Of a stretch of 64,000 nt of DNA, positions 26,767 through 39,826 are shown in pieces. Numbering within the stretch: the first letter of the stretch is position 1; each line of letters starts with the position of its first letter. Origin of the DNA: Kordiimonadales bacterium IMCC3096 (GTDB lineage: Bacteria; Pseudomonadota; Alphaproteobacteria; Minwuiales; Minwuiaceae); assembly GCA_016865035.1 (NCBI GenBank), contig CP018227.1, forward strand, positions 3,940,115 to 4,004,114, written 5' to 3'. The notes under the pieces are model-generated. The model did not search any database. It saw only the letters and a list, made by a program, of their open reading frames with translations, and was not told the origin of the DNA. The position numbers and the translations under genes were made by a program.

Positions 26767-27525
26767 ATGCGTGTCACGATCCTTGGCTGTGGCAGTTCCG
26801 GTGGCGTGCCGCGTATTGGCGGCGAATGGGGCGTGTGCGATCCACACGAACCGAAGAACCGTCGTCGCCGCTGCTCGATCCTGGTGGAGCATGAGGGCAC
26901 GCGGGTGCTCGTCGATACCTCGCCGGACCTGCGGGAGCAGTTGCTGGATGCCGGAGTGACGGATCTGGAGGGGGTGATCTGGACCCATGATCACGCCGAC
27001 CAGACCCACGGGCTGGACGACCTGCGGGTGCTGGCGATCCACAACCGCCGCCGGATCGAGGTCTGGGGCGATGCGGAGACGCTTGTCCGGCTGAAACGCA
27101 AGTTCGGCTACTGCTTCCCCGACGAGGCCTCGGCGGCCTATCCGGCTATAGTCAACGACCATCTTATCGACGGCCCGCTGCAGATCGGAAACCTGCCGAT
27201 CCTGCCCTTCTGGCAGGACCATGGCACGATGCCGTCGCTGGGCTTCCGGTTCGGCGATGTCTCATATGCCAATGATGTCGTCCATCTGGACGATGCGGCG
27301 TTCGAGGCGATGGCGGGCAGCCGGGTGATGATCGTCGATGCGCTCCGCTATCGTCCGCATCCGACCCACGCCCATCTGGAGCGGGCGCTGGAGTGGATCG
27401 AGAGGGTCGGACCGGAGCGGGCCATCCTGACCAACATGCATGTCGATCTCGACTACCGCACCCTGAAGGCTGAACTGCCTGACGGGGTCGAGCCGGCCTA
27501 TGACGGCATGGTCATCGAAGCCTGA
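26767..27525 (+). CDS. MBL-fold metallo-hydrolase, PhnP-like
   Basis: The 252-residue protein is a metallo-beta-lactamase-fold enzyme with ILGCGSSGGVPRIGG at the N-terminus and the metal site THDHADQTHGLDDLR. Further metal ligands are likely in FWQDHG, MIVDALRY and MHVDLDY. PhnP-like members hydrolyse cyclic phosphodiesters (phosphoribosyl cyclic phosphate in the phosphonate route), but the placement after tatD, with only 2 bases between, points to a housekeeping nucleic-acid or nucleotide role. No phn genes are in the window. Annotation to a precise substrate is not supported. Confidence 0.9.
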   Translation: MRVTILGCGSSGGVPRIGGEWGVCDPHEPKNRRRRCSILVEHEGTRVLVDTSPDLREQLLDAGVTDLEGVIWTHDHADQTHGLDDLRVLAIHNRRRIEVWGDAETLVRLKRKFGYCFPDEASAAYPAIVNDHLIDGPLQIGNLPILPFWQDHGTMPSLGFRFGDVSYANDVVHLDDAAFEAMAGSRVMIVDALRYRPHPTHAHLERALEWIERVGPERAILTNMHVDLDYRTLKAELPDGVEPAYDGMVIEA

Positions 27526-27706
27526 AACGACCGCCTCTGACAGGCATGTCGACCGATGCCGTCTTGACGCCGCGATGGATCACCTTTGCGGATTTTCTGC
27601 ATCATTTTTGAGCGCGAGCCCATCCCTGTGCAACACTGTCGACACAACAGGGACCGGCCGACAAACGGTTGCTGGCAAACAGGCAGGATCAGGGGTGGGG
27701 AATTCG

Positions 27707-28678
27707 ATGAAATACAAACTGCTGGGCGCCACGGGCGTCAGGGTTTCGGAGCTTTGCTACGGCACCATGTCCTTTGGGGGCGATGCGGATGAAGCGGAGT
27801 CCGGCCGCATGTATGCGGCCTGCCGCGACGCGGGGATCAACTTCTTCGACAGTGCCAACGTCTATTCCAGCGGACGTTCGGAAGAGATTCTGGGGCGCTT
27901 GATCGCCGGCGAACGTGATGAGGTGATCATCACGTCCAAATGCACCGGGGTCGTGGGGAAGGACGTGAATGCCCGCGGCAGCAGCCGCCGCCATGTCGTG
28001 CGTCAGGTGGAAGAGAGCCTGAGGCGTCTCGATACCGACCGTATCGACGTGCTGTTCATGCACCATTTCGACGAAAGCCTCCCCGTCGAGGAAGTTCTCC
28101 GCGGCCTCGAGAACGTCGTGCAGTCCGGCAAGGTTCTCTACATCGGTGCCAGCAACTATGCAGCCTGGCAGGTCGCCAAGGCGCTCGGAATTTCGGAACG
28201 GCGCGGCTGGGCGCGTTTCGACGTGCTGCAGCCGATGTACTCGCTGGTCAAGCGCCAGGCCGAAAGCGAGATCCTGCCCATGGCCCTGTCGGAGAATCTC
28301 GGCGTCATTCCCTACAGCCCGGTCGGCGGTGGTGCCTTGAGTGGCAAGTATGGTGTGAAGCAGAAGCCCGAGCAGGGCCGTCTGGTCGCCAACGAGATGT
28401 ATGCCAAGCGCTACAGTGCCGAAGGGACCTACGAGACCGCTGCCGCGTTCACCGATTTTGCGAACAATGCAGGGATTCACCCCGTCAGCCTTGCCGTCGC
28501 CTGGGTCGCCGGTCATCCAGGGGTCACAAGTCCGATCATCGGTGCCCGCAATGTCGAACAACTGCGTCCGGCACTTCAGAGTGTCGATGTGGATATGACA
28601 CCCGATCTGCGGGCAGAGATCTCCGGCCTTTCCAAGGCCCCGCCGCCCGCGAATGACCGCTTCGAGGAACGTGTCTGA
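27707..28678 (+). CDS. Aldo/keto reductase
   Basis: The 323-residue protein is a TIM-barrel NADPH-dependent oxidoreductase. The catalytic tetrad is visible: Asp in FDSANVYSSGRSEE with its Tyr, Lys in ITSKCTG and His in LFMHHFD. Cofactor binding is at VIPYSPVGGGALSGKYG and SPIIGARN. It resembles the potassium-channel-beta/YajO-like AKR branch. ATG 27707 is preceded by GGGGTGGGG. It starts 181 bases after the MBL gene and is followed by a 114-base gap before the aromatic operon, so a link to that operon is possible but unproven. Confidence 0.9.
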   Translation: MKYKLLGATGVRVSELCYGTMSFGGDADEAESGRMYAACRDAGINFFDSANVYSSGRSEEILGRLIAGERDEVIITSKCTGVVGKDVNARGSSRRHVVRQVEESLRRLDTDRIDVLFMHHFDESLPVEEVLRGLENVVQSGKVLYIGASNYAAWQVAKALGISERRGWARFDVLQPMYSLVKRQAESEILPMALSENLGVIPYSPVGGGALSGKYGVKQKPEQGRLVANEMYAKRYSAEGTYETAAAFTDFANNAGIHPVSLAVAWVAGHPGVTSPIIGARNVEQLRPALQSVDVDMTPDLRAEISGLSKAPPPANDRFEERV

Positions 28679-28792
28679 GCCTGCAACTGAAGGCGCATTC
28701 CGGCCAGATCAGATTCATCTCTGACCGGTCTGGGCGTGCCGATTGGATCGTGCCAGTCTCCGGGGCGATGCTTGATGGGGGGAGCGGATCAG

Positions 28793-29935
28793 GTGACAGG
28801 GTTGAAACACGTCGAGATTCTGGGGGGTGGTCCTGCCGGGCTTTATGCGGCCATCCTGCTGAAGCGGGCATGGCCCGGCATCTCCGTCCGGGTGACGGAG
28901 CAGAATCCGGCGGACGCGACCTTCGGCTTCGGTGTCGTCTTCTCCGATCAGGCGCTCGATTTCCTGCGCGCCGACGATCCTGAAACACATGACCTGATCA
29001 CGCCGCGGATGGAGCGGTGGCGCAACATGACCCTTTCCCATGCCGGGGATCGTGTCACCCTGGACGGGATCGGCTTCGCGGCGATCGGGCGGCTGGAACT
29101 GCTGCAGATCCTGCAGGGACGGGCGCGTGATGAGGGGGTCGAGCTGCACTATGACACGGTTATCAACTCTGTGGACGATCTGGATGCCGACCTGATCATC
29201 GGTGCGGACGGGCTGAATTCGCTGGTCCGGTCATCGGATGAGAACGGGTTCGGCCCGACGCTGGAGCACTTCGCGAACCGCTTCGCCTGGTTCGGCACCA
29301 CACAGCCCTTCGATACGCTGACGCAGAGCTTTGTCCGCACCGACAGGGGCACGCTGAATGCCCATCATTACCGCTATCAGCCGGCAATGAGCACCTTCAT
29401 CGTCGAATGCGATCCGGCGACATTTCACGCGCATGGCTTTGACCGGATGAGCGAGACGGAAACCGCGGCGGCCTGCGAGGAGATCTTCCGGGAGCCGCTG
29501 CAGGGCGCGAAACTGATCTGCAACCGCTCCCTCTGGCGGCAGTTTCCGCGCCTGTGGTGCCGCAACTGGGTCAGCGGAAGCCGGGTCATCCTGGGGGACG
29601 CGGCCCACACGGCACATTTCTCCATCGGCTCCGGCACCCGGCTGGCCATGGAGGACGCGATTGCGCTGGTCCGGGCGTTGCAGGCCGACAGTGACCTGGA
29701 GGCTGCCCTGAATGCGTTTCAGGCCGCGCGTCAGCCCATCGCGAAGAAGATCGTCGATGCCGCCAATACCTCCGCCGCCTGGTACGACCGGTTCCCGGAG
29801 AAGATGACGCTGGCGCCGCTCGACTTTGCCTTCGACTACGTCACCCGTTCCGGCCGGGTGGACATGGATCGCCTGCGAAAGCTGTCGCCGGAGTTCATGA
29901 CCCGGTACGAGGCCGCAGGGGGAAAGGGCGCATGA
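28793..29935 (+). CDS. FAD-dependent monooxygenase, salicylyl-CoA 5-hydroxylase/anthraniloyl-CoA monooxygenase-like
   Basis: This is a group A flavoprotein hydroxylase of 380 residues. It has the dinucleotide motif EILGGGPAGLYAAI, the DG motif GADGLNSLVR and the GD motif GDAAHTAHFSIGSGTRLA. The segment AHFSIGSG is characteristic of enzymes that hydroxylate aromatic acyl-CoA thioesters (salicylyl-CoA 5-hydroxylase and the N-terminal half of 2-aminobenzoyl-CoA monooxygenase/reductase). Here the reductase half is absent, so it is the single-domain type. GTG 28793 is preferred because a GGGGGAG site lies 9 bases upstream; ATG 28775 is an alternative. Its stop overlaps the next gene (ATGA), an aryl-CoA ligase, as expected for a CoA-thioester route. 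Confidence 0.85.
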   Translation: MTGLKHVEILGGGPAGLYAAILLKRAWPGISVRVTEQNPADATFGFGVVFSDQALDFLRADDPETHDLITPRMERWRNMTLSHAGDRVTLDGIGFAAIGRLELLQILQGRARDEGVELHYDTVINSVDDLDADLIIGADGLNSLVRSSDENGFGPTLEHFANRFAWFGTTQPFDTLTQSFVRTDRGTLNAHHYRYQPAMSTFIVECDPATFHAHGFDRMSETETAAACEEIFREPLQGAKLICNRSLWRQFPRLWCRNWVSGSRVILGDAAHTAHFSIGSGTRLAMEDAIALVRALQADSDLEAALNAFQAARQPIAKKIVDAANTSAAWYDRFPEKMTLAPLDFAFDYVTRSGRVDMDRLRKLSPEFMTRYEAAGGKGA

Positions 29936-31533
29936 ACACGCAGATCATCGATCCGGTTGGTGAAACTCCGGGGGCTGCGGAGATCGGCTTCGACAAGTCG
30001 GCTCACCCCAACTGCAGCGCCATCCTGTTCGATAACCTGCCGACCAATGCCGACCGGGTGGCCGTCACCGGCCCCGCCGGTACCCTGACATACGCCGAAC
30101 TGTGTGCGGAGGCGGGGCGCTGGGGCAATGCCTTCAAGGGTTTCGGGCTGGAGCGTGGCGAGCGCATCGCGTTCTTTCTCGACGACACGCCCACCTATCC
30201 GGCGGCATTCTTCGGCGCGGTCCGGGCCGGCTTCGTGCCGGTCCTGCTCAACACGCTGACCACGCCGGACCTGCTGCAGTTCTTCCTCGCCGATACCGAC
30301 GCCCGGATTGCAGTGGCGGAGGCCGAGTTCACCGACCGTTTCAATGCCGGGACCATGGCGGGCACGAAGCTGGAGCGCGTGGTCATCGCCAATGGCAGCG
30401 GCGATCTGCCCGCGAACAGCCAGCACGCCAGCGCGTTCATTGCTGGTCAGTCAGACGAACTGCCGGTCGCGGATACCGGTCCTGACGACATGGCATTCTG
30501 GATGTATTCCTCCGGCTCCACGGGGCGGCCCAAGGGCATCGTCCATCTGCATCACGACATGGCCTATACGCAGCAGTCCTTCGCGGAGAAGGTGCTGCAA
30601 CTGCGGCCCGATGACCTGTGCTTCTCGGTGCCGAAGATCTTCTTCGCCTACGGCTTCGGCAATGCCTTCACCTTTCCCTTCTCTGTCGGGGCGACCACTG
30701 TTCTGATGCCGGGGCGGCCCGATCCCGCTGCGGTGCTCGACTGCATCGAAACCTTCCGGCCAACGGTGCTCTACGGCCTGCCGACGCTCTATACCGCGAT
30801 CTGCCGGACACCGGGCGTGGCTGAACGGGACCTGTCATCGCTGAGGCTCTCCATGTCGGCGGCGGAAACCCTGTCGGAGGATATCTTCAACGCCTGGCGG
30901 GACCTGACCGGCCTCTGCCCCATCGAGGGGCTGGGGTCCACGGAGGTGCTGCATATCTATCTCTCCAACACCCAGGCCGACCAGCGTATCGGTGCCGCCG
31001 GCCGCCGCGTGCCAGGCTACGAGGTGGAACTGCGCGACCGTGACGGAAACCCGTCACCGGACGGGGAGGAGGGGATCATGTGGGTGCGTGGTTCGTCCTC
31101 CGCCCCGTGCTACTGGAATCGTCCCGACAGGACCGCCGAGACCATGCGCGGAGACTGGATCAATACCGGAGACCGCTTCCTGGAGCAGGATGGCTACTAT
31201 CAGTTTCAGGGGCGTGCCGATGACCTGATCAAGGTCTCGGGCCAGTGGGTCTGGCCGCTGGAGGTGGAGCGCTGCCTGAACGAGCACCCGCACGTCCATG
31301 AGTGCGCCGTGCTGGCGCATCAGCTTCCCGACCGGCGGATGGCGCTGCGGGCCGTCGTCTGCCTGCGCGACGGACACGCGGGGGACGAAGCGGAGGTCAG
31401 GCTGCTGCAACAGCACGTGCGTGAAGCCTTGCTGCCGTTCAAGTATCCCCGCATCGTGGAGTTCGTGGCCGAGATGCCGAAGACGGGAACGGGCAAGATC
31501 GACCGTCAGGCACTTGTTTCTGGGGAGGGATAA
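29932..31533 (+). CDS. Benzoate-CoA ligase family aryl-CoA ligase
   Basis: The 533-residue adenylate-forming enzyme has the P-loop-like motif MYSSGSTGRPKGIVH, the A5 motif GLGSTEVLHIYLSN, the hinge WINTGDRF and the C-terminal catalytic Lys region TGTGKIDRQAL. KIFFAYGFGNAFTFP is a hallmark of benzoate-CoA and 2-aminobenzoate/hydroxybenzoate-CoA ligases. It would activate an aromatic acid to the CoA thioester that the overlapping flavoprotein hydroxylates. The exact acid (salicylate, anthranilate, hydroxybenzoate) cannot be fixed by eye. It starts inside the monooxygenase stop and is followed 2 bases later by a dioxygenase gene. Confidence 0.9.
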   Translation: MNTQIIDPVGETPGAAEIGFDKSAHPNCSAILFDNLPTNADRVAVTGPAGTLTYAELCAEAGRWGNAFKGFGLERGERIAFFLDDTPTYPAAFFGAVRAGFVPVLLNTLTTPDLLQFFLADTDARIAVAEAEFTDRFNAGTMAGTKLERVVIANGSGDLPANSQHASAFIAGQSDELPVADTGPDDMAFWMYSSGSTGRPKGIVHLHHDMAYTQQSFAEKVLQLRPDDLCFSVPKIFFAYGFGNAFTFPFSVGATTVLMPGRPDPAAVLDCIETFRPTVLYGLPTLYTAICRTPGVAERDLSSLRLSMSAAETLSEDIFNAWRDLTGLCPIEGLGSTEVLHIYLSNTQADQRIGAAGRRVPGYEVELRDRDGNPSPDGEEGIMWVRGSSSAPCYWNRPDRTAETMRGDWINTGDRFLEQDGYYQFQGRADDLIKVSGQWVWPLEVERCLNEHPHVHECAVLAHQLPDRRMALRAVVCLRDGHAGDEAEVRLLQQHVREALLPFKYPRIVEFVAEMPKTGTGKIDRQALVSGEG

Positions 31534-31535
31534 CT

Positions 31536-32402
31536 GTGGAAATTCAGCCACTTCATGCCGATTTCGGTGCCCGTATCACCGGTTTCGATCTCTCGGTGCC
31601 GCTTGATGAGGCCCGGCGTGGCGCGCTTCTGGATGCCATCGACCGATGGTCGTTTCTCTGTTTCCCCGATCAGGCGCCGGGCGACGACCGCCATCTGGCC
31701 TTCACCCGGGAGATCGGTGAACCGGAACCCAACCACCTGCCGAAGGGGGAGGAAGGGCGGATCGACTATTTCGGCACCATCGGCAACGTGCAGGAAGACG
31801 GTACGGCACTCGGCAATGACCACAGGAAGACGATCTTCCTGACCGGCAACAACATGTGGCACACGGATGCCAGCTTCAAACCCGTGCCCGCCTTCATCTC
31901 CATCACCTCGGCCTATGAGGTGCCGTCGGAAGGTGGCGAGACCCAGTTCGTCAGCGCCCGCGCGGCCTACGACAGACTGGACGGTGCCCGCAGGGCGGAA
32001 GTCGATCCGCTGGTCGTGGTGCACGACTACGTCTTCTCCCGCTCCAAGGTGTCGCTCGATGCGGTGTCACCGGCACTGGCGAAGTCCCTGCCGCCGGTCC
32101 GGCAGCGCTTCGTGCGCCGCAATCCGTCAAACGGACGGAAGAACCTGTTCATGGGTTCCCACGCCAGGGAGATCGAGAGCTGGAGCGAGAAGGACAGCCG
32201 GGACCTGATCGACGGGCTGATCGAGGATGCGACGGCGGAAGCGAACATTCTGACCCACTGCTGGCAGGCTGGTGAAGTCGTGATCTGGGACAACCGCTGC
32301 CTGCTGCATCGAGGCCTCGGCTACGATGCCGACCGCCACCGCCGCCTGATGCGCCAGACGCGGGTACGCGGTGCCGGGCCGACGCTGGAGGAGGCGTTCT
32401 AG
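31536..32402 (+). CDS. TauD/TfdA family 2-oxoglutarate-dependent dioxygenase
   Basis: The 288-residue protein is a non-haem Fe(II)/2-oxoglutarate oxygenase. The metal HxD is in NNMWHTDASFKPVP, the distal His in DNRCLLHRGLGYD and the 2-oxoglutarate Arg in RRLMRQTRVRG. The N-terminus FGARITGFDLSVPL is typical of TfdA-type members, which cleave aryloxyacetates, as well as of taurine dioxygenase. The start is a GTG two bases after the ligase gene. In this operon it may release or modify the aromatic acid that is then activated, for example by oxidative ether cleavage, but that is inference. Its end overlaps the convergent HI0933-type gene by 4 bases. Confidence 0.9.
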   Translation: MEIQPLHADFGARITGFDLSVPLDEARRGALLDAIDRWSFLCFPDQAPGDDRHLAFTREIGEPEPNHLPKGEEGRIDYFGTIGNVQEDGTALGNDHRKTIFLTGNNMWHTDASFKPVPAFISITSAYEVPSEGGETQFVSARAAYDRLDGARRAEVDPLVVVHDYVFSRSKVSLDAVSPALAKSLPPVRQRFVRRNPSNGRKNLFMGSHAREIESWSEKDSRDLIDGLIEDATAEANILTHCWQAGEVVIWDNRCLLHRGLGYDADRHRRLMRQTRVRGAGPTLEEAF

Positions 32403-37364: not shown

Positions 37365-37537
37365 GGCCAGCTTCCTCCCCAGTAAGTGGTCCCGTCGGGC
37401 ATTGTTCACCACAAGTCGCGCGAAGGTAAAGCGGGCAGCTTGCATGGCGGGCAGGAAGGGGCTTCCCGTTAACCAGACACTGCGCCATCATCCGTTTGCC
37501 GTGTCGGGGGGCGCAGGTGAATGATGGGGGAATTGCC

Positions 37538-39826
37538 TTGCGCAAGTTGCTGATGCTGATCGGCCTGTCCGCGCTGTTGCTGTCCGGCGCTCTTTCCGTC
37601 CAGGCCCAGATCCCCGGCGTGTCCGGCGGGACCCAGCCTGCGGAGACTGCGGCCCTGCCGGAGAATCCGACACCCGAACAGGTGCGGGAGATGGTATCGC
37701 GCCTGTCTGACGAGCAGGTCCGTGCCCTGTTGCTGCAACGGCTCGATGCGGTGGCGGCATCCGGCAGCGGCAATGCTGAATCGGGCAGCCTGATCGACTT
37801 TCTCGGACGCGCGGCCAGCGATGTCGCGGAGTCGGTGACCGACGCGGTGGAACGCTTGCCGACGCTGGGCCGCAGCCAGTCCCGTGCCTTCGCACGCTTT
37901 GCGGAGGAACGCGGTGCCGGCGGGGTCTTCCGGTTCTTCGCGCTGCTTGCCTTTGGGGTCGGCGCCGGTCTCGCCGCCGCCTGGCTGGCCAATCGCATCG
38001 CCGGACGCTGGCGCGACCGCATTCAGGCCGCCACGGGACGGGAGGGGCTGAAGGAGATCGTACGCATCCTGGGGCTGCGCCTGCTGATGGACATGGCCGG
38101 GCTGCTGGTCTTCGCGCTGGTCTCGCGCACCGTGCTGGGCATCCTGATGACCGACGTGGACCGGGAGATCGCGCGGCTGTTCGTCACCAGCCTGATCGTG
38201 CTGCCAATGGGCATGTCTGCGGTCGTGAGCTTCCTGATCGCACCACGTCGCCCGGAACTGCGGTTGGTGAACACGGATGACGAGACGGCGCGCTTCCTTC
38301 ATCGCCGACAGATCATCTTTGCCCTGATTGTCGGCTTCCAGTACCTGATCATCGAGTTCAACCGTGTCCACGGGGTGCCGGTGGGCGAGACGCGGATCGG
38401 TTTCTGGCTCAATCTCTGGGTGCTGTCCTATGTTGCCTGGGCAAGCTGGCGTGCGCGCCGCGGTCTGCGCATGATGATGCGCGGCGGTGACGAGGAACTG
38501 GGGCCGATCGAGCGCCGTGTGGCCGACAACTTCCCCTACATGGTGATCGCGCTCTGCGCCCTGACCTGGCTGCTGGTGGAGATCCTGACCGGGCAGGGCA
38601 TGTTCGAACTGGTCGCTGACGGACAGGCCTATGTGACCCTCTTCATCCTGATCATGTGCCCGACCCTCGACACGATGGTCCGTGGCCTGGTGCGGCACCT
38701 GACGCCACCGATGAAGGGAGAGGGCGTGGTGGCGGAGGAGGCCTTTGCCGCAACGCGGCGCAGCTATGTCCGCATCGGCCGGGCCATCACCTTCGCCATC
38801 GTCATCATCCTGATCGCGCAGATCTGGCAGATTGACTTCCGCAATCTGGCGAGTGCCGGTTTCGGTGCACGGGCGGCGGCATCGATTGTCCAGGTGCTCG
38901 TCGTGCTGGGTGTCGGTTTCGTGGTCTACGAGGTGGTGACACTCTGGATCAACCGGAAGCTGGCCAACGAGCAGACCGCGCTCGGCATCGACCTGAACTC
39001 CGAGGAGGTCGGCGCAGAGGGCGGCGGCGCGGGCGGCTCCCGACTGTCGACCGTGCTTCCCCTGCTGCGCTGGACCTCGCAGGCGGCAATCGTGACCATC
39101 ACGCTGCTGCTGGCGCTCGGGAACCTGGGCCTCGACATCACGCCACTGCTCGCTGGTGCCGGTATCGTCGGTCTGGCCATCGGCTTCGGTGCGCAGAAGC
39201 TGGTGGCGGATATCGTCTCGGGCATCTTCTTCCTGATCGATGACGCCTTCCGGACCGGTGAATATGTGGAGATCGAGAGCACGGTTGGAACCGTGGAGAA
39301 GATCTCCATCCGGTCCCTGCAGTTACGCCATCATCGCGGCAGCATCCACACCATCCCGTTCGGTGCGGTGCCGAAGATCACCAACTATTCGCGCGACTGG
39401 GTGATCATGAAGCTGAAGTTCACGGTGCCCTTCGAGACCGACCTGAAGAAGGTCAAGAACATCTTCAAGCAGATCGGCAAGGAACTGAGTCAGATCCCTG
39501 AATTTGAAGGTGATCTGATCCAGACATTCAAGAGCCAGGGCGTGCTGGAAGTTGACGACGTGGGCATCGTGGTGCGCGGCAAGTTCATGGCCAAGCCGGG
39601 TACCCAGTTCACCATCCGCAAGTTCATCTACGACCGTGTGCAGAAGCTGTTCGACGAGAACGGCGTCCAGTTCGCCCGGCGCGAAGTACGTGTGCGGGTC
39701 AATGGCGGCTCCGATGACGAGACCGTGCCCCAGCTCACCGAGGAGCAGAAGCGCCAGATCGCTGCGGCGGCCTCCGACCAGGCCGGCTCTGATGGATCGG
39801 CATCCGGAGGATCAGGCGCCGCGTAG
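37538..39826 (+). CDS. Large MscS-family mechanosensitive ion channel
   Basis: This 762-residue inner-membrane protein is much longer than E. coli MscS (286). A signal peptide (MRKLLMLIGLSALLLSGALS) leads to a periplasmic segment of ~110 residues that includes PEQVREMVSRLSDEQVRAL. About seven to nine membrane segments follow. The MscS pore helix TM3 reads GAGIVGLAIGFGAQKLVADI, followed by the beta domain (GEYVEIESTVGTVEKISIRS) and the C-terminal cytoplasmic vestibule. It likely releases solutes on hypo-osmotic shock. The start is TTG 37538, with GGGGGA upstream; GTG 37517 in frame is an alternative. The C-terminal ~40 residues are low-complexity (Ser/Gly/Ala). Confidence 0.92.
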   Translation: MRKLLMLIGLSALLLSGALSVQAQIPGVSGGTQPAETAALPENPTPEQVREMVSRLSDEQVRALLLQRLDAVAASGSGNAESGSLIDFLGRAASDVAESVTDAVERLPTLGRSQSRAFARFAEERGAGGVFRFFALLAFGVGAGLAAAWLANRIAGRWRDRIQAATGREGLKEIVRILGLRLLMDMAGLLVFALVSRTVLGILMTDVDREIARLFVTSLIVLPMGMSAVVSFLIAPRRPELRLVNTDDETARFLHRRQIIFALIVGFQYLIIEFNRVHGVPVGETRIGFWLNLWVLSYVAWASWRARRGLRMMMRGGDEELGPIERRVADNFPYMVIALCALTWLLVEILTGQGMFELVADGQAYVTLFILIMCPTLDTMVRGLVRHLTPPMKGEGVVAEEAFAATRRSYVRIGRAITFAIVIILIAQIWQIDFRNLASAGFGARAAASIVQVLVVLGVGFVVYEVVTLWINRKLANEQTALGIDLNSEEVGAEGGGAGGSRLSTVLPLLRWTSQAAIVTITLLLALGNLGLDITPLLAGAGIVGLAIGFGAQKLVADIVSGIFFLIDDAFRTGEYVEIESTVGTVEKISIRSLQLRHHRGSIHTIPFGAVPKITNYSRDWVIMKLKFTVPFETDLKKVKNIFKQIGKELSQIPEFEGDLIQTFKSQGVLEVDDVGIVVRGKFMAKPGTQFTIRKFIYDRVQKLFDENGVQFARREVRVRVNGGSDDETVPQLTEEQKRQIAAAASDQAGSDGSASGGSGAA

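Follow-up and report, generated by a model that had tools for sequence, protein, structure and literature searches.

The degradation of salicylate through coenzyme A (CoA) thioesters is described in passages of two papers: in the CoA-mediated gentisate pathway, sdgC converts salicylyl-CoA to gentisyl-CoA (PMC13215587), and the full order from salicylate via salicylyl-CoA and gentisyl-CoA to gentisate is given with a citation of Zhou et al. 2021 (PMC11335346). Here, we analyzed 64,000 nucleotides of DNA from Kordiimonadales bacterium IMCC3096 (assembly GCA_016865035.1, contig CP018227.1, positions 3,940,115 to 4,004,114; hereafter, the window), whose 4.29-Mb genome is a single contig, and focused on three adjacent genes for a hydroxylase that binds flavin adenine dinucleotide (FAD), an aryl-CoA ligase, and a dioxygenase of the TauD/TfdA superfamily. 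A related module, cehGHI, is said to belong to Rhizobium sp. X9; passages of a review on this strain, carbaryl, and salicylate do not mention the CoA route. We find that the hydroxylase and ligase are probably a salicylate module of the CehH/CehG type, and that the dioxygenase encoded with them probably became attached in part of the genus Minwuia, the usual work of its clade being independent of the pair. The locus, for which the original prediction had proposed a new order of aromatic breakdown, is instead best read as an already described kind of salicylate-CoA module, present in a genus that has been little studied.

Read as open frames, positions 28793-32402 of the window hold three intact genes that lie head to tail on the plus strand, which confirms the compact three-gene run first proposed:

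28793..29935, plus strand: CehH-type FAD monooxygenase, probable salicylyl-CoA 5-hydroxylase; 380 amino acids (aa), GTG start
29932..31533, plus strand: CehG-type aryl-CoA ligase, probable salicylate-CoA ligase; 533 aa
29932..29935, plus strand: ATGA shared by the hydroxylase stop and the ligase start; the same overlap in L015, L016, and L017
31536..32402, plus strand: Fe(II)/2-oxoglutarate dioxygenase, TauD/TfdA superfamily, in a clade of its own; 288 aa, GTG start

Two bases separate the TAA of the ligase from the GTG of the dioxygenase, and an alternative in-frame GTG for the hydroxylase lies at 28736, the named CehH proteins aligning from residue 1 of the 28793 start. The closest named relatives of the locus are metagenome-assembled genomes of Minwuia, a genus of Alphaproteobacteria in an order of its own, with hydroxylases identical to that of the window at 95% (L015), 93% (L016), and 85% (L017). 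Both tight junctions are kept in these three loci, and the ligase stop lies 2-5 bases from the dioxygenase start in all three and in the window (L015, L016, L017, and a further locus, L018, come from the same assemblies as G008, G005, G004, and G006, and are counted once). Pairwise ratios of nonsynonymous to synonymous substitution between the window and the three relatives ranged from 0.06 to 0.13 for the first two genes and from 0.09 to 0.17 for the dioxygenase, and all three genes look maintained, as real genes under purifying selection, with the dioxygenase slightly less constrained. A promoter scan of the locus found none (shuffle mean 0.5), and three terminator-like sites were seen (shuffle mean 1.9), neither result being informative.

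The first gene probably encodes a CehH-type salicylyl-CoA 5-hydroxylase, judging from its likeness to named proteins. Its product is 64% identical over 380 residues to a protein named cehH on an Agrobacterium plasmid and 63% identical over 374 residues to CehH of Salipiger, belongs to the Pfam family FAD_binding_3, contains the segments GGGPAG, GADG, and AHFSIGSG, and matches the hydroxylase domain of NF006101, the NCBIfam model of the bifunctional salicylyl-CoA 5-hydroxylase, with an E value of 1.5e-116. Of the 768 positions of the PRK08255 model, it covers only 2-382, as named CehH does, and it stays below the cut-off of that model because the second (oxidoreductase) domain is absent. With 380 aa and a single hydroxylase domain, it is CehH-like in size, and it falls in the same tree family as named CehH, where it branches early and apart from the clade that contains the named rows. 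The AHFSIGSG segment, which had been singled out in the flavoprotein from the start, is indeed present at residues 274-281; it recurs in 51 of the 53 loci scanned (48 with a short and five with a long bifunctional hydroxylase; AHFSVGSG in the other two) and is therefore a marker of the family, not of this locus.

The second gene, again by likeness, is a probable CehG-type salicylate-CoA ligase. It is 65% identical over 527 residues to a named cehG protein and 67% identical to a second CehG, contains the segments SSGSTGRPKG and PKTGTGKI, and passes the benzoate-CoA ligase family TIGR02262 with 499 bits against a cut-off of 375. We infer that the ligase would turn salicylate, or a close ring-substituted relative, into salicylyl-CoA, and that the FAD hydroxylase would add a 5-hydroxyl to give gentisyl-CoA, from which a thioesterase encoded elsewhere, or another route, would free gentisate. 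Its ring would be opened by a gentisate 1,2-dioxygenase, the gene for which is present in the source genome at G000:C1:3579188-3580177 (TIGR02272, 544 bits, cut-off 442). The original prediction had also placed the ring-cleaving genes outside the window; the genes seen near the operon bear this out, the gentisate 1,2-dioxygenase gene lying ~390 kb from the pair.

The pair itself is common. Six exact peptide patterns retrieved 44 genome loci with the hydroxylase (four Minwuia and 40 non-Minwuia), a sample that is not exhaustive and in which counts of neighboring genes are lower bounds, some contigs being short. Hydroxylase and ligase are adjacent in 39 of these loci, i.e., in 36 of the 40 non-Minwuia ones, which, together with the 64-65% identity to named CehH and CehG, bears out the proposal that an aryl-CoA hydroxylase and an aryl-CoA ligase belong together. 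Stretches around the non-Minwuia hydroxylases contain relatives of gentisate dioxygenase (22/40) and of the CehI thioesterase (24/40), and an IclR regulator (33/40). A plasmid search gave 182 records with relatives of the hydroxylase, and RefSeq annotation, the source of the cehG, cehH, and cehI names, applies cehH to two of the 30 matches listed; on both of these plasmids, the next gene is cehG (salicylyl-CoA ligase), and the divergent gene before cehH is cehI (gentisyl-CoA thioesterase) on one and an acyl-CoA thioesterase on the other. A third arrangement was seen in L029, L036, L048, L030, L033, L042, and L053, which have genes of a branched-chain-type ATP-binding cassette (ABC) importer cluster near the hydroxylase and no relative of gentisate dioxygenase in the stretch; PF13458 and PF02653 were confirmed in three tested importer proteins of L029 and L030. 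The pair is not a new combination, and the suggested new order of aromatic catabolism was rejected because the pair is widespread and because the known CoA-mediated gentisate route already activates salicylate with CoA and then hydroxylates it at position 5, as passages of both papers set it out (PMC13215587, PMC11335346).

Several observations weigh against reading the Minwuia locus as a salicylate module joined by an independent dioxygenase. A CehI relative lies beside the pair in none of the four Minwuia loci (one of only 4.2 kb), the best CehI match in the source genome reaches only 31%, and matches resembling fumarylpyruvate hydrolase (40%) and the isomerase (44%) are scattered over that genome. 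Eighteen of the 40 non-Minwuia loci have no relative of gentisate dioxygenase in the stretch around the pair, and the cupin of one cluster (L019), which we take for a gentisate dioxygenase by inference from its cluster, scores only 277 bits on TIGR02272 (cut-off 442). The Minwuia pair also branches outside the clade of named CehG/CehH rows and of most gentisate clusters; its substrate may therefore differ. Finally, so tight a ligase/dioxygenase junction in Minwuia argues that the dioxygenase has some functional link. In favor of the reading, the hydroxylase tree and the ligase tree each unite the Minwuia rows in a single supported clade at a similar early place (the ligase tree lacks rows for L018, L029, L048, and L057, which have no ligase above cut-off).

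The early branching of both enzymes would also suit a pair that acts on something other than salicylate, e.g., a substituted salicylate, with the dioxygenase trimming a substituent from this ring or from the product formed. Several early-branching relatives have ABC importer genes (PF13458/PF02653 in the tested members) and no relative of gentisate dioxygenase in the stretch, which is in keeping with this idea, but elsewhere among the early branches a gentisate 1,2-dioxygenase gene does lie next to the pair: in L027, L051, and L043, the gene right after the ligase exceeds the TIGR02272 cut-off of 442 (541, 552, and 495 bits), pointing to gentisate or a near relative as the product. We regard a different substrate of this kind as quite unlikely and keep to a CehH/CehG-type salicylate module as the probable identity of the pair.

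Beside the Minwuia pairs, we found none of CehI, IclR, a tripartite ATP-independent periplasmic (TRAP) transporter, or gentisate genes. The source genome also encodes a long bifunctional salicylyl-CoA 5-hydroxylase/oxidoreductase (L139; G000:C1:3495950-3497044), which passes PRK08255 with 1132 bits (cut-off 1078); two open frames near it are presumably enoyl-CoA hydratases. The same open-frame start, which we take to be transposase-like, occurs close to the gentisate dioxygenase gene as well as to other TauD/TfdA paralogues of this genome (L140, 4636-5463; L141, 1-567).

The third gene belongs to the TauD/TfdA family (PF02668, E 2.5e-50), a family to which the source genome has 14 matches at E <= 1e-15 with this dioxygenase as query, its own copy included. 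Its best solved relative is 5bke, annotated as a 2,4-dichlorophenoxyacetate dioxygenase (E 9.7e-51), and its identity is 35% to TfdA of pJP4, 34% to SdpA, and 28% to E. coli TauD. A tree with 55 rows, 50 of them different, places it in a separate clade (31 rows, of which 26 differ; support 100/100) that includes none of the five references; a few genes appear in two rows each, L077 (a stop in frame) and L083-L091 (gentisate-dioxygenase matches) were left out, and deep placement is unsure, TauD and a few other rows being long branches. All 31 clade rows have the iron ligands H109, D111, and H258, the 2-oxoglutarate arginine R270, and a Gln at position 274, where TauD has Arg270 and TfdA has Arg278. 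His70 and Arg270 are substrate contacts of TauD, according to passages of PMC9304159, and the window dioxygenase has Asn66 and Gln274 in their place. By analogy with TauD, Arg278 of TfdA may also be a substrate-binding residue; a literature search on Arg278 found no paper. SdpA and a Sphingobium reference have His at this position, and Arg is therefore not universal among aryloxyalkanoate enzymes. By its residues, the dioxygenase is neither TauD nor canonical TfdA, and it may bind an acid group in another, SdpA-like manner. The label of a TfdA-type dioxygenase holds insofar as the enzyme is nearer to TfdA than to TauD, in identity and in the tree, and does not hold insofar as it has its own clade and Gln274 for Arg278. 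A predicted structure (mean predicted local distance difference test score of 37.4, from an alignment of just four close sequences) was too poor for use.

These data also bear on the idea of a taurine- or sulfonate-type enzyme placed beside the pair by chance, which we consider highly improbable. The Pfam family is shared with TauD, PDB chains named taurine dioxygenase are matched (best 5keu, E 6.5e-27, followed by the 1gqw/1os7 sequence, 1e-20), and the best NCBIfam match is the taurine dioxygenase model, though the protein fails it with 112 bits against a cut-off of 313. Against this stand the low identity to TauD and the replacement of both TauD contacts; TauD also lies across a 98/87 split from the dioxygenase clade, though its long branch makes this placement unsure. 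An identity as taurine dioxygenase was rejected on these residues, with the tree as weaker support since TauD is a long branch.

The occurrence of the dioxygenase further informs its tie to the pair. Seven of the nine genomes of the order-level group belong to the genus of the window, and five of these seven (G000, G004, G005, G006, and G008) have the short hydroxylase; in all five, the next gene after the ligase is the dioxygenase. Four Minwuia genomes have all three genes side by side (the window, L181, L183, and L182), and in the fragmented assembly of G006, ligase and dioxygenase are adjacent on one contig (2 bases apart or with an ATGA overlap), with the hydroxylase at the end of a different contig. 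The two Minwuia genomes that lack the short hydroxylase, G003 and G007, have the dioxygenase elsewhere in the genome at 61-62% identity. The triplet is thus conserved within the genus, and the dioxygenase is not grouped with TauD, so that the original prediction is not refuted on its own terms; the search of other genomes, as far as sampled, returned the triplet from that one genus only. Across the class, with at most six candidates scored per genome, 22 of 385 alphaproteobacterial genomes have a copy of at least 58% identity, 18 of them outside the genus, and the next matches reach at most 42%. Conversely, no TauD/TfdA relative (E <= 1e-3) was found in the flanks of the 40 non-Minwuia or of four plasmid hydroxylase loci. 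None of the 21 orthologue loci outside the triplet (18 outside the genus, two in Minwuia without the pair, and one in another genus of the family) holds the hydroxylase, and none of their genomes has its short form, with five having only the long bifunctional one. The association of dioxygenase and pair is a Minwuia speciality in what was sampled.

Among the 21 orthologue loci, seven contain a distant relative of the ligase (23-30% identity), and the five scanned match fatty-acyl-type synthetase models best, not the benzoate-CoA ligase family. In two loci of family f35 (L135 and L136), the dioxygenase has as its convergent, tail-to-tail neighbor an acyl-CoA synthetase gene, 320 and 65 bases away, which is a possible clue to the dioxygenase substrate; the L136 synthetase passes PRK08162 (890 bits, cut-off 677), and the partial frame of L135 reaches 662. 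Ten other neighbors from three loci, including DNA gyrase B, a DEAD helicase, an amidase, and a pyridoxal-phosphate enzyme, are unrelated to aromatics, one being without a match.

In its strongest form, the original proposal would have the dioxygenase open the pathway by cleaving an O-alkyl or carboxymethyl ether of a 2-hydroxybenzoate (e.g., 2-carboxyphenoxyacetate) to salicylate and glyoxylate or an aldehyde, with the pair continuing from there. The idea fits the 2-5 bases between ligase and dioxygenase, the complete iron and 2-oxoglutarate residues, and the annotation of 5bke, and the synthetase neighbor in two of the 21 orthologue loci (one family) adds a weak hint of a carboxylic acid. 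However, those synthetases are PRK08162 proteins and not of the benzoate-CoA ligase family, the identified neighbors are unrelated to aromatics, the identity to TfdA is just 35%, and Gln replaces the TfdA Arg278/TauD Arg270 throughout the clade. Outside the triplet, the two genes were not seen together: a dioxygenase relative is in the flanks of 0/40 non-Minwuia hydroxylases, and a short hydroxylase is in 0/21 orthologue genomes, so that only the tight junction ties the dioxygenase to such a reaction. We think ether cleavage unlikely, and it survives as a possibility only because that junction is conserved. A more far-reaching version, which we hold to be rather improbable, is that Minwuia recruited the dioxygenase to free salicylate, or a relative with ring substituents, from a precursor capped as an ortho-ether or in some other way, with a single transcript leading from capped 2-hydroxybenzoate to gentisyl-CoA; if true, the fixed Gln274/Arg276 pair of the clade would define a new substrate class of TfdA-like enzymes. 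Under the preferred reading of a salicylate module with an attached dioxygenase, the dioxygenase joined the pair in part of Minwuia and is probably translationally coupled to it, the genes are presumably co-transcribed, and the likeliest reason for its placement would be co-expression, without a demonstrated step in the same pathway.

Genes around the triplet vary. An aldo-keto reductase gene upstream (window 27500-28678) has counterparts in G005 and G008 but not in G004, and it was rejected as part of the unit: in G004 (L181), the triplet comes directly after a gene of the metallo-beta-lactamase (MBL) fold without it. In G007, G002, and G001, considered as possible empty sites of the block, the upstream TatD and MBL genes occur without the triplet in the available stretches (the G007 contig ends ~0.5 kb after the MBL gene, and the stretch from G001 is short); no MBL match reached the cut-off in G003. 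On a contig of G006 (L142, G006:C298, 2037-4445, minus strand), a ligase frame is fused to an unrelated N-terminal part, presumably a pyridoxamine-phosphate oxidase, and the contig is possibly chimeric. Elsewhere in the window, a 409-aa open frame (37469-38698, minus strand) had no match in Pfam or NCBIfam scans.

On the substrate of the TfdA-like dioxygenase clade, the operon in Minwuia gives an initial, weak functional clue, which comparison with known systems helps to frame. The dioxygenase shares with E. coli TauD the Pfam family, the iron and 2-oxoglutarate residues, and 28% identity, but the His70/Arg270 contacts of TauD are replaced by Asn66/Gln274. With TfdA (Cupriavidus pJP4), it shares the family, the HxD...H iron ligands, the 2-oxoglutarate arginine, and 35% identity, and differs in its fully supported clade, in Gln274 for TfdA Arg278, and in the lack of an aryl-ether gene beside the orthologues examined. 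The hydroxylase is homologous to the hydroxylase domain of the PRK08255 proteins, to which we assume SdgC to belong as a long bifunctional form: it is 41-45% identical to long proteins of Minwuia and its family, and AHFSIGSG is found in all five long proteins checked, whereas those proteins have ~780 aa with a second oxidoreductase domain and the window gene has 380 aa and fails the PRK08255 cut-off. The nearest system is the CehG/CehH/CehI module, which likewise has a short one-domain FAD hydroxylase with AHFSIGSG, followed on the same strand by a ligase of the benzoate-CoA ligase family, at 64-65% identity; in the Minwuia loci, a 2-oxoglutarate dioxygenase follows that ligase instead of the CehI, IclR, TRAP, and gentisate genes.

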